Source of the DNA: Calditrichota bacterium
Lineage (GTDB): Bacteria; Zhuqueibacterota; Zhuqueibacteria; Zhuqueibacterales; Geothermadaptataceae
Length of the DNA stretch: 64,000 bases
Assembly: GCA_008501765.1 (NCBI GenBank)
Contig: QQUE01000012.1
Span: 310,001-374,000 of the forward strand
Reading direction: 5' to 3'
Part shown: in pieces, positions 1,842 through 45,838 of the stretch
Numbering within the stretch: the first letter of the stretch is position 1
Layout: every line of letters begins with the position of its first letter
Position numbers and translations under genes: made by a program
Notes under the pieces: generated by a model
What the model saw: the letters and a program-made list of their open reading frames with translations, nothing else
Database searches by the model: none
Told to the model about the DNA's origin: nothing

Positions 1842-2597
1842 TCATATTGTTTGTAATATTGTCTTTGTAATCAGCGCCAAAACCAGGGCCATCAGAGCTG
1901 ACATCAATGTGCCGATGAGCACATATTCGGCGAAGCTCCGTTTTTCCAGCTCTTTAAAGCGCGTGATTCCCTTTGCAACCAAAATAAAACCAATCGCACC
2001 AAATTGTCCGTGTAATACAAAAATAAAGACCAAGGCCCTTTCCAACATGCCAATTATCCGTCCAGCGTTATAGGCCTTTTTATCGATGATCCAATTCGCC
2101 TGCTCTGCCTCTTTTTTTGGTGCAAAATCCAACCAGTTGAAAATGGTCCGCAGCAGAACATTTACCTCGGTAACCGCCAATAAAAAACCGGTCATCATGA
2201 TATTAAATGCCAACCAGTTTTCGGCAAAATAGATCCCCATCTTGCCATTCATTCTTAAAAAGGCGAAAGATCTTGCTACCAGCTCCGATTCTGTCAGTTC
2301 AGGTCCGGTAAAGGCAACAGCCGCTAAAAGTGGCACTGCCAAAGCAATCGTTGTTAATCGACTTTTAAGCACATTATCGGCACGTATTTCTAACAAAAAA
2401 CTGAGAATATTTATTGCAAGAATTAGTGCTGCAAAGACCAATAACTTTACCGAAAATGTGAAATATAACAACGGGAGCAGTTGTATAAATATCACCCAAA
2501 ATAATATTATTTTGCTTATGGGCTGACTGCGGAAAATGTACAATATTCGCGCGAGCAGCATGGTTTTAAAAATGAGTACAAACGCCAACATCTTCAC
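1842..2597 (-). CDS. Multi-pass membrane protein, DUF3307-like C-terminus
   Basis: A 251-residue hydrophobic protein with roughly six to seven membrane segments. The C-terminal 80 residues carry a GRIIGMLER segment, a hydrophobic GQFGAIGFILVAKGITRF stretch and a FAEYVLIGTLMSAL stretch. This is the pattern I associate with the C-terminal part of DUF3307-type membrane proteins. Its start overlaps the stop of the upstream SatD-like gene by 4 bp, so the two are almost certainly translated from one mRNA. A SatD-like protein next to such a membrane partner is a recurring pair; its biochemical role is unknown to me. Function is left open. Confidence 0.7.
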   Translation of the reverse strand: MKMLAFVLIFKTMLLARILYIFRSQPISKIILFWVIFIQLLPLLYFTFSVKLLVFAALILAINILSFLLEIRADNVLKSRLTTIALAVPLLAAVAFTGPELTESELVARSFAFLRMNGKMGIYFAENWLAFNIMMTGFLLAVTEVNVLLRTIFNWLDFAPKKEAEQANWIIDKKAYNAGRIIGMLERALVFIFVLHGQFGAIGFILVAKGITRFKELEKRSFAEYVLIGTLMSALMALVLALITKTILQTI

Positions 2598-3223
2598 CCC
2601 TTCAACTCTTTTGCAATTATATTTGTAATTTCGCGAATCACCTTGTGAATTATCCCAATGCCATTTATTTGAATGGCTTTATAAATGGCTTTATCCGTAA
2701 GATTTTGGGACTCCGCAATCGCTATTATGCTGGTGTCTGCCATTAATTGTCGTAAAATTGCGAAACGATTCGCTTTCCATTTTTGCATGTGAAATGAGAG
2801 CAAGTTCAAATTCTCTTCGATGAGCGCGCGCTCAGGATTTTGCAGTCCTTTTATATTTAGCAAAGAGTTTTGCCGGCGCATTTTTGACATGCCTTCTCTT
2901 GCACAATGGAACGCCTGCCCATCCATGCCAATCGCTTGATTTTTATTAATTTGAGTCGCGATTGTACCAATACCCAGCGAAAAGCGTATCCGCACTGGCC
3001 ACGTCCGTTCCATTATCGAGAAAATATCCAGAAACAGACGCTGTGGATTTGTGAATACGGCCTGAAATTCATCGCCAAGTGTGATCGTGTAGGGTGAAAT
3101 CAAACTGTTGTTCTTATTGTTTAAATCCGCAAATAAAGCTTGTAGTTCATTTTGAAATTTCATGCGCTCGGGAATTTTTTTTGAGGAAACCACATCCCCA
3201 ATCAAAACAAGGTACCGTTGCAT
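2594..3223 (-). CDS. SatD family protein
   Basis: A 209-residue protein. The N-terminus (YLVLIGDVVSSKKI), the central ITLGDEFQAVF motif and the IRFSLGIGTI strand are characteristic of the SatD family, named from the streptococcal sat locus linked to acid tolerance. The C-terminal third looks like a helix-turn-helix (DKAIYKAIQINGIGII). The frame extends to 3286, but I place the start at 3223: family similarity begins there, and GGAAAA lies just upstream. It overlaps the following membrane-protein gene by 4 bp. The family fold suggests nucleotide binding, but its activity has not been established to my knowledge. Confidence 0.75.
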   Translation of the reverse strand: MQRYLVLIGDVVSSKKIPERMKFQNELQALFADLNNKNNSLISPYTITLGDEFQAVFTNPQRLFLDIFSIMERTWPVRIRFSLGIGTIATQINKNQAIGMDGQAFHCAREGMSKMRRQNSLLNIKGLQNPERALIEENLNLLSFHMQKWKANRFAILRQLMADTSIIAIAESQNLTDKAIYKAIQINGIGIIHKVIREITNIIAKELKG

Positions 3224-3607
3224 ATTTTCCAATTCAAAGATAAAGGTAGAAATTCTATTATTCAACCATAACAGTTGAATATGCACAGTTTTTAAATGAA
3301 AATCAACAAAAATATTTTAAAGAAACAGTTCATCACCATTCGCCAATTTCAAACAGGATGCAATCCAAATTAGTATTTCTGCTTATTTTTTTCGTAAAAT
3401 TTAATTTTTTAATACTTGAAATTAAATCAATAAATATTTTACTTAGCAGAGAGTAAGCTTGTGCGAATTCATACCAGACTTTAAAGACCAATTTAAACAA
3501 TATTTTGTGATTTTTTTATTGCTTTCTCCCATACATAATCTTAAGTTTTATCACACTTCCATTAAAAAGCCAGTCACTTAATTGAATCCCCAATCGAGCC
3601 AATAAAT
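3224..3607. other. AT-rich divergent intergenic region
   Basis: The 384 bp between the divergent SatD-like gene and the oxidoreductase/desulfurase gene are strongly AT-rich. They must hold promoters for both directions. I see no convincing sigma-70 or sigma-54 box, no repeat and no coding sequence. Confidence 0.5.
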
Positions 3608-6600
3608 ATGAATAATAATCAAGCCAATACTGAAAAACAGGGAATTTGCGGCATTTGTCCTTATGGGTGCTGGATTACAGCAACTTATGATGACGCCGGC
3701 AAGATTTCCAAAGTCAAAGCTGATGACAGCTCCCCTTTTGGCAGTATCTGCCAATTGGGGGTGCATTCTGCAGGTATTATTTACTCAAAGGACCGCCTGA
3801 AATACCCGATGAAACGCGTTGGTAAAAAGGGAACCCACAATTTTGAGCGTATCTCATGGGACGAAGCCTACGATGAAATTGCCGAAAATCTGCAAAAAAT
3901 AAAAGCAGAATCCGGAGCCAAAGCGACGGGTATTTATACCGGCAGAGGCAGCTTCGATTTTTCCATGAACGATGTCTTTCAGCCGCGGGATGTAATCCGC
4001 CAATCAACCGCCAGCAGCCTGCTATTCCCCTTCGGTTCGCCGAATACTTTTGGCGTTGGTTCGCTCTGTTATGTTTCTTTCGGCATGATTGCGCCGCACA
4101 CCACACTCGGGGCAATGTGGCTGGATATGTACACAGATATCGAAAATGCGGAGCTCATTATCGTTTGGGGGGCCAATCCGGCGACGGACTCCCCACCGAG
4201 AAATCTCGAACGCATTGTCAAAGCCCACCACCGCGGCGCGAAAGTTATCGTGATCGATCCGCGGCGCACGGCGACCGCAAAACAAAGCCAGGCCGAGTGG
4301 ATTCCCATCCGTCCCGGCACCGATGGTGCGCTGGCTTTGGGTTTGTGTAATATTTTAGTGAAAGAAGAATTGTTCGATGAAAAGTTCGTCAAAGACTGGA
4401 CGATCGGTTTCGATGAATTTTCACAATACATCCAGCATTTTACCCCTGAAGTGGTTGAAAATATCACGGACGTTCCAGCCGAGACCGTCGCAACGCTCGC
4501 CAGAAAAATTGCCCAGGCAAACGGTGTTGCCCAGGTGATGTACACCGGCCTCGAATACAGCGCCAGCGGGGTTCAGGCCATTCGGGCAACGCTGGTTCTG
4601 TGGGCGCTTGCCGGTCAACTCGACATTCCGGGCGGGCTCAATTTTTACATGCCCGGCAACGAATTTCCAATTAATCGCGAAGGCAATATTGCCAATCCGG
4701 ATGTGCGCAACGCCATCGGCCGTGATCTGTTCCCGCTGTACACAAAATACCGCGATGAATCGCACCCGCAAGCTCTGCCCGAGGCAGTTTTAAACGGCAA
4801 TCCCTATCCAGTTCGCGGGCTCATCGTTCTGGGTGCTTCGATTATCACCTCGTGGCCCAATCCATCGCTGTGGCGCAAAACCCTCAACGGCCTCGATTTT
4901 CTCGTCTGTATTGACCGGCAAATGACAGCCGATTGTGCTTACGCCGACATCGTTTTACCGGCAACCACGATGTACGAAATCGAAACTTATATGACCTACA
5001 ATTCCATTTTCAAAATTAGAGAAAAAATGATCGAACCCGTCGGAGAAGCGCGCAGTGATTTTTTTATTCAGGCTCAAATTGCTGAACGCCTTGGTTACGG
5101 TCATCTCTTCCCTCAGACCGAAAAAGAGCTTTTTGAAAATGCATTAAAAGGCACCGGTTTTAATTACGAAGAATTGCGCAAGGGGGACGGTTTGGCGCGC
5201 ATTCCCGCAAAAATGATGGAATATAAAAAATGGGAAAAAGGACTGCTGCGAGCTGACGGCAAACCCGGTTTTGACACACCTTCCGGTAAATTTGAAATTA
5301 CTTCAACAATTTTGGAGGAATACGGCTATGAGCCGTTGCCCGTTTACATCGAACCCTTCGAAGGGCCGCTGGCTGCGCCGGACACGGCAAAAAATTTTCC
5401 GCTCATTTTCAATTCCGGAGCCCGGGTTAAAACCGACTTTCGCTCCCAGCACCACGGCGTTCCATCGTTGAACAAAAAACGCCCGGACCCAACCGTAACG
5501 CTCAATTCCAAAGATGCCGCCGGGCGAAATATTGCAAGCGGCGACCTGGTAAAACTGACAACATTGCGCGGAGCCGTGGAAATGCGGGCGCTCGTCACGG
5601 ACGACATTGTCGCGGGCAGTATTGAAGCCAACATGGGTGGTGGCGGCCCGGTCGGCCCCAAATCCTGGCAAAACTGCAATATTAACGAGTTGACCGACCT
5701 CGATCAATACGACGCTGTTTCCGGTTTTCCGGTGTACAAATCCCTGCTATGCGAGGTCGAAAAAGTGGCTGCGGGTAATGGCGCTGTAAAAGTCGATTCC
5801 GGCGAATACGTTAATAAGACGATCAAAAAACCAGCGGCCAGCAACGGTCGTATTATTTATCTCGATAACAACGCAACGACGCCGATGGCCCCGGAAGTTA
5901 TCGATGAATTGCAAAAAATTATGGCGCTCTACGGCAATCCATCCAGCATTCACAAATTCGGCCAGGAAGCCAAAGATGCCGTTGAACACGCACGGCGGAA
6001 AATTGCCCAGCTCATCAATGCCACCGCACGGCGGATTATTTTCCAGAGCTGCGGTTCCGAAGCCAATAACCACACGATTAAAGGCATTGCCTTCAACAAA
6101 GCAAAAGATGGCAAAAACCACATCATTACTTCGGCAATCGAGCATCCTTCTGTACGCAATACCTGCAAATGGCTGCAGGAAAACGGCTTTACTGTGACCT
6201 ATTTAAAAGTGGATAAATCCGGACGAGTCGACCCGGCTGCGCTTGAAAAAAGTCTGACAAACAAAACATGCCTCGTCAGCGTCATGCTGGCGAACAATGA
6301 AACCGGTACAATTCAGCCGGTGCGCGAACTGGCCCAAATTGCCCGGGATCACGACGTTCTTTTTCACACAGATGCGACACAGGCGGTCGGGAAAATCCCC
6401 ATCGATGTTGTCGATCTCGGTGTCGATATGTTGACTTTTTCCGCCCATAAATTTCACGGCCCCAAGGGCATTGCTGCGCTGTATGCCTCGAAAAACACCT
6501 CATTGGAAAGTCTGATCAACGGTGGCAGCCAGGAAAAAGGCACGCGGGCTGGAACGGAAAATGTTATGGGTATCGCCGGTTTTGGCAAAGCAGCCGAGCT

Positions 6601-7006
6601 GGCAGGAAAACGCCTTTTTGCTGTTGATAAAATAAAAAATTTGCGCGACCAACTGGAAAGCGGCATCCGCAAGTTAGGTATCGATGTCACATTCAACGGA
6701 CATATGGATCACCGTTTGCCGAACACACTCAACGTTACGTTGAATGGATTTCGAGGTGAATCCATCGTACTCATGCTCGGGCAAAAAGGCATTTGCTTTT
6801 CATCTGGCTCCGCCTGCCGTTCCGGTTCACCGGATCCCTCATACGTTCTAACCGAGATGGGATTGTCCGACGAAGAAGCCCACTGCACCCTGCGTTTTTC
6901 CCTCGGGCATGAAAATACGGAAGCAGAAATAGAGACGGTACTCGATGCCCTCGGCAGCATCGTCAAAGATTCCCGCGATGTCGTCAGTTTTATCGCATGT
7001 CGATAA
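3608..7006 (+). CDS. Molybdopterin oxidoreductase fused to a cysteine desulfurase
   Basis: A single uninterrupted 1132-residue frame joins two complete enzymes. Residues 1-716 are a bis-MGD Mo/W oxidoreductase: an N-terminal [4Fe-4S] motif C14-x2-C17-x3-C21-x26-C48, the catalytic body with C154 (codon TGT) at the place of the metal-ligand Cys/Sec, and a C-terminal dinucleotide-binding domain from about 596. A 30-residue linker follows. Residues 748-1132 are an IscS/NifS-type class V aminotransferase fold: YLDNNATTP start, PLP lysine K948 in SAHKFHGPKG, and catalytic C1070 in SSGSACRSG. No Tat signal is visible, so it is probably cytoplasmic. In known formate dehydrogenases a cysteine desulfurase supplies, via FdhD, the sulfido ligand of Mo. 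The fusion suggests built-in sulfuration of its own cofactor, which is inference. The substrate cannot be read from sequence. moaA lies elsewhere in the window (44.8 kb). Confidence 0.9.
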   Translation: MNNNQANTEKQGICGICPYGCWITATYDDAGKISKVKADDSSPFGSICQLGVHSAGIIYSKDRLKYPMKRVGKKGTHNFERISWDEAYDEIAENLQKIKAESGAKATGIYTGRGSFDFSMNDVFQPRDVIRQSTASSLLFPFGSPNTFGVGSLCYVSFGMIAPHTTLGAMWLDMYTDIENAELIIVWGANPATDSPPRNLERIVKAHHRGAKVIVIDPRRTATAKQSQAEWIPIRPGTDGALALGLCNILVKEELFDEKFVKDWTIGFDEFSQYIQHFTPEVVENITDVPAETVATLARKIAQANGVAQVMYTGLEYSASGVQAIRATLVLWALAGQLDIPGGLNFYMPGNEFPINREGNIANPDVRNAIGRDLFPLYTKYRDESHPQALPEAVLNGNPYPVRGLIVLGASIITSWPNPSLWRKTLNGLDFLVCIDRQMTADCAYADIVLPATTMYEIETYMTYNSIFKIREKMIEPVGEARSDFFIQAQIAERLGYGHLFPQTEKELFENALKGTGFNYEELRKGDGLARIPAKMMEYKKWEKGLLRADGKPGFDTPSGKFEITSTILEEYGYEPLPVYIEPFEGPLAAPDTAKNFPLIFNSGARVKTDFRSQHHGVPSLNKKRPDPTVTLNSKDAAGRNIASGDLVKLTTLRGAVEMRALVTDDIVAGSIEANMGGGGPVGPKSWQNCNINELTDLDQYDAVSGFPVYKSLLCEVEKVAAGNGAVKVDSGEYVNKTIKKPAASNGRIIYLDNNATTPMAPEVIDELQKIMALYGNPSSIHKFGQEAKDAVEHARRKIAQLINATARRIIFQSCGSEANNHTIKGIAFNKAKDGKNHIITSAIEHPSVRNTCKWLQENGFTVTYLKVDKSGRVDPAALEKSLTNKTCLVSVMLANNETGTIQPVRELAQIARDHDVLFHTDATQAVGKIPIDVVDLGVDMLTFSAHKFHGPKGIAALYASKNTSLESLINGGSQEKGTRAGTENVMGIAGFGKAAELAGKRLFAVDKIKNLRDQLESGIRKLGIDVTFNGHMDHRLPNTLNVTLNGFRGESIVLMLGQKGICFSSGSACRSGSPDPSYVLTEMGLSDEEAHCTLRFSLGHENTEAEIETVLDALGSIVKDSRDVVSFIACR

Positions 7007-7011
7007 TTCCC

Positions 7012-7243
7012 ATCTCGGGATCATAGGCGTCAAGTTAAGGAATTCAAAATGTGGATAACAGCTTTTTTTGAGGCTAATCACGGACATCCCCCTCAATCCC
7101 CCTTCAAAGGGGGACTTAAAAATCTCCCTTTGAAGGGAGACAGGTTTGTGCTCGTCCAGAGCACTAACCAGAGGGATGTTTACAGCGAACTGCGAGTTAT
7201 CCACAATCTCAGTTTTCTTAACTTGACGCGCATGATCTCGGGA
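7012..7243. mobile_element. MITE-like palindromic element, family C, with 9-bp target duplication
   Basis: Direct repeats ATCTCGGGA at 7012-7020 and 7235-7243 flank a 214 bp element (7021-7234). Its ends are inverted: TCATAGGCGTCAAGTTAAG at the left versus CATGCGCGTCAAGTTAAG as the complement of the right. A TGTGGATAAC block also recurs inverted near both ends. The core holds smaller palindromes (CCCCCTTCAAAGGGGG and CTCCCTTTGAAGGGAG). Short frames inside it are artefacts. It lies 5 bp after the stop of the oxidoreductase/desulfurase gene. Confidence 0.8.
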
Positions 7244-7259
7244 GGGGGAAAGTTTGATT

Positions 7260-7283
7260 AAAAGAACGCGAAGCGTTGCTTTT
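7260..7283 (+). terminator. Possible weak terminator hairpin
   Basis: AAAAG-A-ACGC pairs imperfectly with GCGT-TG-CTTTT around a GAA loop. Only four T follow, so termination would be weak. It lies between the mobile element and the ATP-grasp gene. Confidence 0.35.
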
Positions 7284-7359
7284 AAACAATCAGGGGTGGG
7301 TTCGTCGTTTCGTAATAGAGAATTGAAGTGCGTTGAGTGCAAAAGGAACAAGGGAGCCT

Positions 7360-13155: not shown

Positions 13156-14417
13156 TATGAAAACATCTCGATTACTTTGTAAAGTGCTTTAATTAAAGCG
13201 TCAATTTCTTCTTTGGTATTGTAAAATGCAAAAGATGCCCGCGTCGTGGCCGGCACTTTAAATCGCTGCATCACGGGCTGGGTGCAATGATGGCCAGTTC
13301 GCACAGCAACCCCTTCGCGGTCGAGTATGGTGCCGATATCGTGTGGATGCACATTTTCGAGCACAAAAGAAACGGCGCCGGCCCGTTTTTTGGCCTGACC
13401 GATGAAACGCAATCCCTCAATTTCGCTCAACCGTTGCACGGCATACCGAATTAGTTCATTTTCGTAGGCTGAAATTGCAGAATATCCTACTTTTTGAATG
13501 TAATCAATCGCCACGCCAAGCCCGATCACATCGGCAATATTGGGGGTTCCTGCCTCAAACTTGTAGGGCAGGTCGTTAAATTTTGTGCTTTCAAAAGTTA
13601 CATTTAAAATCATGTCGCCGCCGCCCTGGTAGGGTGGCAACTTTTGCAGCCATTCTTTTTTCCCGTAAAGCACACCAATCCCGGTGGGCCCGAACACTTT
13701 ATGGCTCGAAAAAACGAAAAAATCACAATCCAGCGCTTGCACATCAACGTGCGTGTGCGGGACCGCCTGGGCGCCATCCACCAAAACAGGCACGCCTTTG
13801 CTGTGTGCCAGATCGATTATTTCACGCAGGGGGTTTACCGTTCCGAGCGAGTTGGATGTGTGTACAATGCTGACTAATTTAGTACGCTCATTGAGCAATC
13901 CTTCGTAGGCTTCGAAAATTATTTCACCATTATCATTGATGGGAATAATCCGTAGTTTGGCGCCACGCTCTTCACACATCATTTGCCACGGAACGATATT
14001 GGAATGATGTTCCATCGCAGAAATAACGATTTCATCACCTTGTTTAATGAGACCACGACCAAAAGACGCCGCGATCAGATTGATTCCATCGGTCGTGCCC
14101 TTGGTAAATATAATTTCCTCATTCGACTTGGCATTCAGAAAGTGCTGTATTTTTTTTCGCGTACCTTCATAGGCATCCGTGGCAATTTGGCTTAGTCTGT
14201 GAACACCACGGTGTACGTTTGAATTGTACTCAAAATAATATTTTCGCAATGCGTCAACGACAACCGTCGGTGTCTGGCTGGTCGCGGCATTATCCAAATA
14301 AATGAGTGGCTTTCCATGCACTTCTTGCTGCAAGATGGGAAAATCTTTACGAATTTTTTCAACATCGAAATGACTTGCCCTGGTGTCTGCCGTGAAATCT
14401 TTTGTTGTGTTGGTCAT
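13155..14417 (-). CDS. sufS: Cysteine desulfurase SufS
   Basis: A 420-residue group II desulfurase. Visible motifs are PLIYLDNAATSQ, the EHHSNIVPW block, the PLP lysine in SSHKVFGPTG, and the catalytic cysteine in RTGHHCTQPVM. It takes sulfur from cysteine and passes the persulfide to SufU for the SufBCD scaffold. About 20 extra N-terminal residues precede the family core. It lies 15 bp after sufD. This is a second desulfurase distinct from the one fused to the oxidoreductase at 3.6 kb. Confidence 0.95.
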   Translation of the reverse strand: MTNTTKDFTADTRASHFDVEKIRKDFPILQQEVHGKPLIYLDNAATSQTPTVVVDALRKYYFEYNSNVHRGVHRLSQIATDAYEGTRKKIQHFLNAKSNEEIIFTKGTTDGINLIAASFGRGLIKQGDEIVISAMEHHSNIVPWQMMCEERGAKLRIIPINDNGEIIFEAYEGLLNERTKLVSIVHTSNSLGTVNPLREIIDLAHSKGVPVLVDGAQAVPHTHVDVQALDCDFFVFSSHKVFGPTGIGVLYGKKEWLQKLPPYQGGGDMILNVTFESTKFNDLPYKFEAGTPNIADVIGLGVAIDYIQKVGYSAISAYENELIRYAVQRLSEIEGLRFIGQAKKRAGAVSFVLENVHPHDIGTILDREGVAVRTGHHCTQPVMQRFKVPATTRASFAFYNTKEEIDALIKALYKVIEMFS

Positions 14418-44836: not shown

Positions 44837-45838
44837 TTAACCGCCGATGAACGACATCTCCACTTTATCCGTATTTGTTTTCGCCTCGCTCCGTTCCTCC
44901 GAATAACGGTTGCTGCGTCCAGTCCATAGATTTTGAATAAATAAACTTATTTCCTCGTCCGAGGCGCCGCCCCGAATCATCGAGCGCAAATCAGTCCCTT
45001 TGTTAGCGAACAGGCACAGATAAAGTGAGCCATGAGCGGATAAGCGCATGCGGGAGCAAGCGCCGCAAAATGCTTGCGTAACTGAGGCAATAACACCCAG
45101 CTCCCCACTGCCATCGGCAAATTCATAACGCCGGGCAACCTCGCCTGAATAATTTGGGGCGATGGGCTGCAATGGATATTTTGAATTGATGGTAGCGATT
45201 ATTTCCTTCTCGGTCACGACATCATCCATTTTCCAGCTGTTGGTCGTTCCGACGTCCATAAATTCAATAAAGCGGAGAATGTACGGAGTCCCTTTAAAAC
45301 GCTCCACCAGGGGCAGAATACTTTCTTCGTTCACACCGCGTTTTATGACGGTATTAATTTTTATCGGGCCGAGCCCGACTTTTTCACATTCGTTTATCCA
45401 GCGCATGGCGTTTTCCACAGACTGATCGACATCGTTCATCTTTTTATAAACGACCTCATCAAGCGAGTCCAGGCTGAGCGTGAGGCGTTTTAATCCGGCA
45501 TCTTTCAATGAGTGCACTCGCGTGGTGGGAAAAGACCCATTCGTGGTCATGCTTAAATCCAGTTCCGGATTCTGCGCCAATAGTGAAATGAGCTGCTCGA
45601 TATCCTTTCGCACCAGCGGCTCGCCGCCGGTGAGCCGCACCTTTCGAACACCGAGTTCAGAAAAAATATTTACTATTCGACCAATTTCTTCAAATGTGAG
45701 GAGTTCGCTGTGTTTCAGATAATCGTATTTTTGATAAACTTCCCGCGGCATACAATAAATACATCGATAATTGCAGCGGTCGGTCACCGAGATTCGCAAG
45801 TCGCGCAAAACTCGATTCTTTTTATCTTTTAATTTCAT
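44837..45838 (-). CDS. moaA: GTP 3',8-cyclase MoaA
   Basis: A 333-residue radical SAM enzyme of molybdopterin synthesis. The N-terminal cluster motif is CNYRCIYC with RISVTDR just before it. RLTGGEPLVR and MTTNGSF are typical, and the C-terminal cluster is C-x2-C-x13-C (CGACSRMRL...YLC). The protein ends in GG, the conserved C-terminal tail. With MoaC it makes cyclic pyranopterin monophosphate from GTP. No other moa/moe gene is in the window. Its product pathway would feed the Mo-oxidoreductase at 3.6 kb. Confidence 0.96.
   Translation of the reverse strand: MKLKDKKNRVLRDLRISVTDRCNYRCIYCMPREVYQKYDYLKHSELLTFEEIGRIVNIFSELGVRKVRLTGGEPLVRKDIEQLISLLAQNPELDLSMTTNGSFPTTRVHSLKDAGLKRLTLSLDSLDEVVYKKMNDVDQSVENAMRWINECEKVGLGPIKINTVIKRGVNEESILPLVERFKGTPYILRFIEFMDVGTTNSWKMDDVVTEKEIIATINSKYPLQPIAPNYSGEVARRYEFADGSGELGVIASVTQAFCGACSRMRLSAHGSLYLCLFANKGTDLRSMIRGGASDEEISLFIQNLWTGRSNRYSEERSEAKTNTDKVEMSFIGG

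Follow-up and report, generated by a model that had tools for sequence, protein, structure and literature searches.

The fusion gene and its neighbours

The window analysed here, a stretch of 64,000 nucleotides, carries a single ATG-started frame in which a metallopterin module is followed, after a linker, by a cysteine desulfurase. The parts of this gene and two further genes that bear on it are listed below, with residues numbered as in the window protein and compared with the metallopterin-dependent ergothioneine synthase (MES) of Caldithrix abyssi.

3608..7006, + strand: MES-type fusion gene, 1132 aa, a single frame without a stop, with Pfam and NCBIfam domains and full-length homologues in several phyla
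3608..5770, + strand: N-terminal metallopterin (bis-MGD) module, acetylene-hydratase-like, about aa 1-721; PF00384 and PF01568; best PDB match 2e7z, 2e-75
3647..3751, + strand: Fe4S4 cysteines C14, C17, C21 and C48, invariant where covered in the aligned homologues; numbered as in the C. abyssi enzyme
4067..4069, + strand: C154, predicted protein ligand of Mo or W, invariant; counterpart of C. abyssi C153
5771..5854, + strand: linker, about aa 722-749, varying in sequence and length in the alignment
5855..6985, + strand: C-terminal NifS-type cysteine desulfurase, aa 750-1126; PF00266, 1.1e-83; TIGR03402 (NifS), 487 bits
6449..6451, + strand: K948, PLP lysine, invariant; C. abyssi K952
6815..6817, + strand: C1070, persulfide cysteine of the desulfurase, invariant; C. 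abyssi C1074
6884..6886, + strand: C1093, a cysteine kept in MES and not in stand-alone desulfurases; C. abyssi C1097
6998..7000, + strand: C1131, penultimate residue and second relay cysteine; C. abyssi C1135
7360..8322, + strand: ATP-grasp ligase gene (cyanophycin synthetase / GshAB type), a possible partner; TIGR02068, 175 bits; PDB 7lgm, 7.5e-32
44837..45838, - strand: moaA, molybdenum-cofactor biosynthesis; TIGR02666, 363 bits, above cut-off

Pfam recognizes Molybdopterin at residues 63-494 (9e-46), Molydop_binding at 602-712 (7e-17) and Aminotran_5 at 750-1110 (1e-83), in agreement with the preliminary description of the locus, which had read a molybdenum oxidoreductase and a cysteine desulfurase in one polypeptide. 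Among the NCBIfam models the desulfurase half fits TIGR03402 best, at a score slightly below the equivalog cut-off, and the molybdenum half falls far under the cut-offs of the models for formate dehydrogenase, thiosulfate reductase and DMSO reductase.

Two other places in the window deserve mention. The SufS of a suf cluster (13158-14417, - strand) scores 680 bits against the encapsulin-cargo desulfurase model (cut-off 800), above its score for the SufS model, and is 420 residues long compared with the 623 of the encapsulin-cargo model. Upstream of the fusion, positions 1842-3286 (- strand) encode a member of the SatD family and, after it, a membrane protein that matches no Pfam family; at this spot the congener has neither.

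Conservation and spread of the fusion

Among 60 relatives searched, copies that are full-length or cut by contig ends were found in the two remaining genomes of the genus (78-80% identity), in one other member of the family (G003) and in five of the class (G019, G024, G028, G034 and G043). A scan of GTDB contigs added Scalindua, a Brocadiaceae bacterium, bacterium BMS3Abin03, a KSB1 bacterium and a Thermoflexales bin. The fusion is present in 10 of 392 Planctomycetota, the names of which, where known, point to anammox lineages, and in two genomes of a Chloroflexota sample. Full-length copies are 78% identical to the window protein in one congener and 55-64% identical in other lineages; in all, the fusion spans Calditrichota, anammox Planctomycetota, Chloroflexota and further lineages. 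The search for homologues with both domains thus returned full-length fusions across several phyla and, because the same fusion recurs in independent genomes and lineages, an assembly join is excluded and the fusion is taken to be genuine and old. Separate genes for the two halves in near relatives, which the preliminary description had named as evidence against its reading, were not found for any relative above 52% identity, and unfused molybdenum halves were encountered only in Chloroflexota, where they form outgroups to MES in the tree. The preliminary description also took both halves to be complete and located the key residues correctly (C14, C17, C21, C48, C154, K948 and C1070). These, and also C1093 and C1131, are kept in every copy wherever the sequence covers them.

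The unfused MES-like proteins (L081:4968-7160, L082:8774-10996 and L083:8856-11036) are 49-52% identical and belong to two Chloroflexota genomes that lack EgtD, the histidine methyltransferase that forms trimethylhistidine. One lies between two genes for MttB-type methyltransferases and one beside an HdrD-like protein and ETF. Such proteins could act in the reverse, sulfur-removing direction.

Between the window and its congener the gene aligns without gaps across 3396 bases. The differences at codon positions 1, 2 and 3 number 186, 119 and 599, respectively, and 60% of the fourfold sites have changed; with synonymous sites saturated in this pair, these counts were used in place of dN/dS. Because changes at the third position dominate, we conclude that the whole fusion, including both halves, is under purifying selection. 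A few of the other copies are damaged: there is an in-frame TAG in G003 (L013), a frame break in the otherwise closed genome G344 (L088) and another at a stretch of N in G043 (L050). This damage may reflect either errors of sequencing or genuine loss. For the window copy, however, a join, a frameshift or a pseudogene is already refuted by the uninterrupted fusion in independent genomes and by the codon-position pattern, and we give this explanation practically no weight.

Assignment to the metallopterin-dependent ergothioneine synthases

The preliminary description knew of no described enzyme with this order of domains. In fact, the architecture is not new; a study of 2022 had already characterized it, with four enzymes tested, as MES, an enzyme that transfers sulfur from cysteine onto the imidazole of trimethylhistidine without O2 (Beliaeva & Seebeck 2022, PMC9516567). 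The presence of EgtD beside the fusion in nine anammox loci had caused us to suspect ergothioneine, and this paper then settled the identity. The C. abyssi MES has 1136 residues, with modules at 1-718 and 747-1136 and acetylene hydratase as its nearest solved relative. Its predicted ligands are C14, C17, C21 and C48 for the Fe4S4 cluster and C153 for the metal, with K952 as the predicted PLP lysine. Mutation of K952, C1074, C1135 or C153 (C153S) abolishes production; C1074 and C1135 are required in sulfur transfer and C1097 is strictly conserved (PMC9516567). In the tested homologue cysteine is the sulfur source, transfer within the same chain is supported and ergothioneine is the product, and when the desulfurase is inactive the metal site still swaps sulfur between ergothioneine and trimethylhistidine (PMC9516567). 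The metal-sulfido mechanism was proposed by the authors and not proven, and to these describers MES was the only family of molybdenum enzymes known to form carbon-sulfur bonds (PMC9516567).

Each of these features has its counterpart in the window protein, when the two enzymes are matched by published residue numbers, lengths and module boundaries rather than by direct alignment. The window protein has the bis-MGD module and the C-terminal cysteine desulfurase in a chain of nearly the same length (1132 residues, compared with about 1136). Its cluster cysteines occupy the same four positions, C154 answers to C153, K948 and C1070 to K952 and C1074, and C1093 and C1131 to C1097 and C1135. The spacings of 122 residues from the lysine to the persulfide cysteine, of 23 and 38 between successive cysteines and of one residue to the end of the chain are identical in the two proteins. 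Further, the window's genus retains 356 of the 401 positions that are invariant among 17 MES accompanied by EgtD.

The last two cysteines set the family apart from its desulfurase relatives. The column of C1093 contains cysteine in all 17 MES aligned and glycine or serine in all six stand-alone desulfurases; C1131 is kept in each of the 16 MES with sequence extending that far and has no counterpart in the six. In this alignment C1093 and C1131 are specific to MES and not general desulfurase residues. An apparent cysteine in the C1131 column of three stand-alone desulfurases was rejected as an alignment artefact produced by long C-terminal extensions. Long C-terminal extensions are found in the stand-alone desulfurases L024, L026 and L031 of class relatives, which have frames of about 735 residues, and by its look we take the extension to resemble selenide water dikinase (SelD). 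An AlphaFold model of the fusion, inspected for a relay path from C1131 to the metal, was too poor for geometry (mean pLDDT 58, pTM 0.44).

We assign the window gene to MES with a probability of about 0.88. The assignment draws on architecture, residue spacing and conservation, and the same chemistry would be expected of the window copy. The PLP desulfurase would draw sulfur off L-cysteine to form a persulfide on C1070, and this sulfur would pass by way of C1131, near the end of the chain, to the metal (Mo or W) held by C154 and form a metal-sulfido group there. N-alpha-trimethylhistidine, or a close analogue, would then attack the sulfido sulfur through its imidazole C2 and ergothioneine would be released without O2, after which the metal would be re-sulfurated before the next turnover.

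An alternative, advanced in the preliminary description, is that the desulfurase serves solely to supply the sulfido ligand in a formate-dehydrogenase-like enzyme of ordinary type, so that the fusion would be a redox molybdoenzyme that matures itself. In its favour, sulfur delivery within the chain is supported in the homologue. FdhD, the general sulfurtransferase that serves formate dehydrogenases, was not found in 11 of the 13 fusion genomes tested, as might be expected of self-maturing enzymes; its absence is also in line with sulfur serving as the substrate of MES and not in the maturation of a formate dehydrogenase. The genome of the window does have one FdhD, located on a different contig near another molybdoenzyme. 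Several observations nevertheless speak against the redox proposal. The formate dehydrogenase alpha model TIGR01591 gives 302 bits where its cut-off is 666, and the nearest structure is that of acetylene hydratase. In formate dehydrogenases the Sec or Cys metal ligand is followed by a catalytic His, and the window protein has C154-Y155 instead. No conserved electron-transfer partner adjoins the fusion. Turnover in the homologue depends on the desulfurase, and isotope exchange largely refutes a redox function for the family (PMC9516567). On model score, active-site residue and literature we reject identity as a formate dehydrogenase, and the self-maturing enzyme is in our judgement very improbable. 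Of the earlier proposal that the enzyme sulfurates its own cofactor, delivery along the same chain to Mo or W stands by homology to the tested enzyme. The purpose given for it, maturation, does not, since in the homologue the sulfur is a substrate consumed at each turnover and ends in ergothioneine.

Substrate supply in the window's genus and comparison with known systems

The MES family was originally found by its co-occurrence with EgtD (PMC9516567), and our survey agrees with this association. With PF10017 above its cut-off as the basis of the call, EgtD is present in 18 of the 23 fusion genomes, compared with 3 of 15 tested genomes without the fusion. EgtD directly adjoins the fusion in nine anammox genomes (L036:4585-11405, and also L042 and L088-L094), with TIGR03438 above cut-off; in the literature searched, no paper was found that treats anammox and ergothioneine together. 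A betaine-type transporter, the nearest solved relative of which is the ergothioneine transporter EgtUC, accompanies MES and EgtD in 11 of the 12 such genomes tested. In several MES genomes a substrate-binding/permease fusion of the EgtUC-like type lies next to EgtD (G003:C107:40598-43809, G019:C61:83156-86493, G034:C47:58659-61820 and G082:C4:71122-73753), which suggests that it transports ergothioneine or trimethylhistidine. In L036 an EgtUC-like transporter precedes EgtD and MES.

The window's genus is represented by three genomes (G000, G001 and G002; completeness values of 98.9, 97 and 67%), and in these EgtD was not found with PF10017, although the same profile search run detected it in sister genomes. 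This bears on the pathway context and is not a property of the enzyme. EgtD was likewise not found with this profile in the Thermoflexales bin that carries the fusion, nor was the EgtUC-like transporter found in these four genomes. A further fusion genome without EgtD, G420, was set aside, as its contig stops about 210 bases past the fusion and in its sister G254 EgtD follows the fusion at about 0.7 kb. In the tree, the MES of the window's genus stands on a separate branch with full support, closer to the anammox enzymes than to the MES of its own family. It falls together with the copies from anammox bacteria and Thermoflexales, the deeper fork being only moderately supported (92/96). G003, a member of the same family, possesses EgtD and the transporter, but its MES belongs to the other main clade. 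From these tree positions, the genus probably acquired its MES separately.

Because the genus lacks EgtD, trimethylhistidine as the substrate is the least certain part of our reading of the window copy, and two possibilities must be weighed. The enzyme may use trimethylhistidine taken up from outside, or MES chemistry may have been turned to another imidazole, either histidine itself or one of its dipeptides or amides, supplied by the ATP-grasp ligase, to yield a 2-thioimidazole other than ergothioneine. The absence of both EgtD and the EgtUC-like transporter from the genus and the separate branch of its MES are what one would expect of the latter. The distribution of the ATP-grasp gene points the same way: it is present in two near-complete genomes of the three in the genus, and directly follows the fusion in both, its only orthologue (68% identical) being that of the congener. 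Among the 60 relatives there was no other match above about 30% identity, and none was found in 17 other genomes. Nonetheless, most positions invariant in MES are kept in the genus, those around C154 included, and scavenging is feasible, as E. coli with the tested MES imports trimethylhistidine efficiently from the medium (PMC9516567). Moreover, a gap of about 350 bases with hairpins separates the fusion from the ATP-grasp gene, and their closeness may in part reflect overall synteny between the two congeners, which also share an upstream Bax-inhibitor gene; for these reasons a functional link between the two genes is only a lead. The spacer itself (7007-7359) contains inverted repeats; in the congener this place is occupied by another hairpin element. 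On balance, the substrate of the window enzyme is more probably than not trimethylhistidine taken up from outside. We consider use of another imidazole unlikely, and somewhat more doubtful still is the specific proposal that in this genus MES, separated from ergothioneine synthesis, and the ATP-grasp ligase make an undescribed 2-thioimidazole, such as a dipeptide or amide of thiolated histidine. Scavenging of trimethylhistidine or, alternatively, thiolation of a different imidazole by this genus is a lead and not a result.

As a whole, the fusion is explained as MES, and the useful part of this analysis is its spread and context: the fusion adjoins EgtD in the anammox genomes, and EgtD is often accompanied by a transporter resembling EgtUC. 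The distribution of EgtD and the ATP-grasp context go beyond the literature that we found. The fusion itself is not where the novelty lies. A genus that has the synthase and lacks the substrate-making gene offers a testable case of scavenging or of a new substrate, and this EgtD-less context is the part of the locus that merits work at the bench.

Comparison with known systems places the window protein as follows. The nearest solved relative of its N-terminal module is the tungsten enzyme acetylene hydratase (PDB 2e7z, 2e-75), which also has an Fe4S4 cluster, bis-MGD and a cysteine ligand but, unlike the fusion, no desulfurase. In acetylene hydratase a catalytic Asp immediately follows the second of the cluster cysteines; in the window protein this position is P18. 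With the NifS and IscS cysteine desulfurases the C-terminal module shares the PLP lysine and the persulfide cysteine, whereas these enzymes lack the additional conserved C1093 and C1131, and the window protein scores under the NifS equivalog cut-off. In the eukaryotic molybdenum-cofactor sulfurase ABA3/MOCOS a NifS-like domain sulfurates the cofactor, as in MES; there, however, the cofactor class and the fold (a MOSC domain) are different, and the protein matures other enzymes and does not use the sulfur itself. The C. abyssi MES has the same two modules in the same order at near-equal length and shares the cluster, metal-ligand, PLP and relay residues, the window protein having one extra residue before the metal-ligand cysteine; enzymes of the C. 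abyssi type were found through EgtD (PMC9516567), in contrast to the EgtD-less setting of the window's genus. Finally, EanB and EgtB lead to the same product as MES, directly or as part of a pathway, by means of unrelated folds and sulfur donors, EanB being a rhodanese that uses polysulfide and EgtB an O2-dependent iron sulfoxide synthase (PMC9516567).
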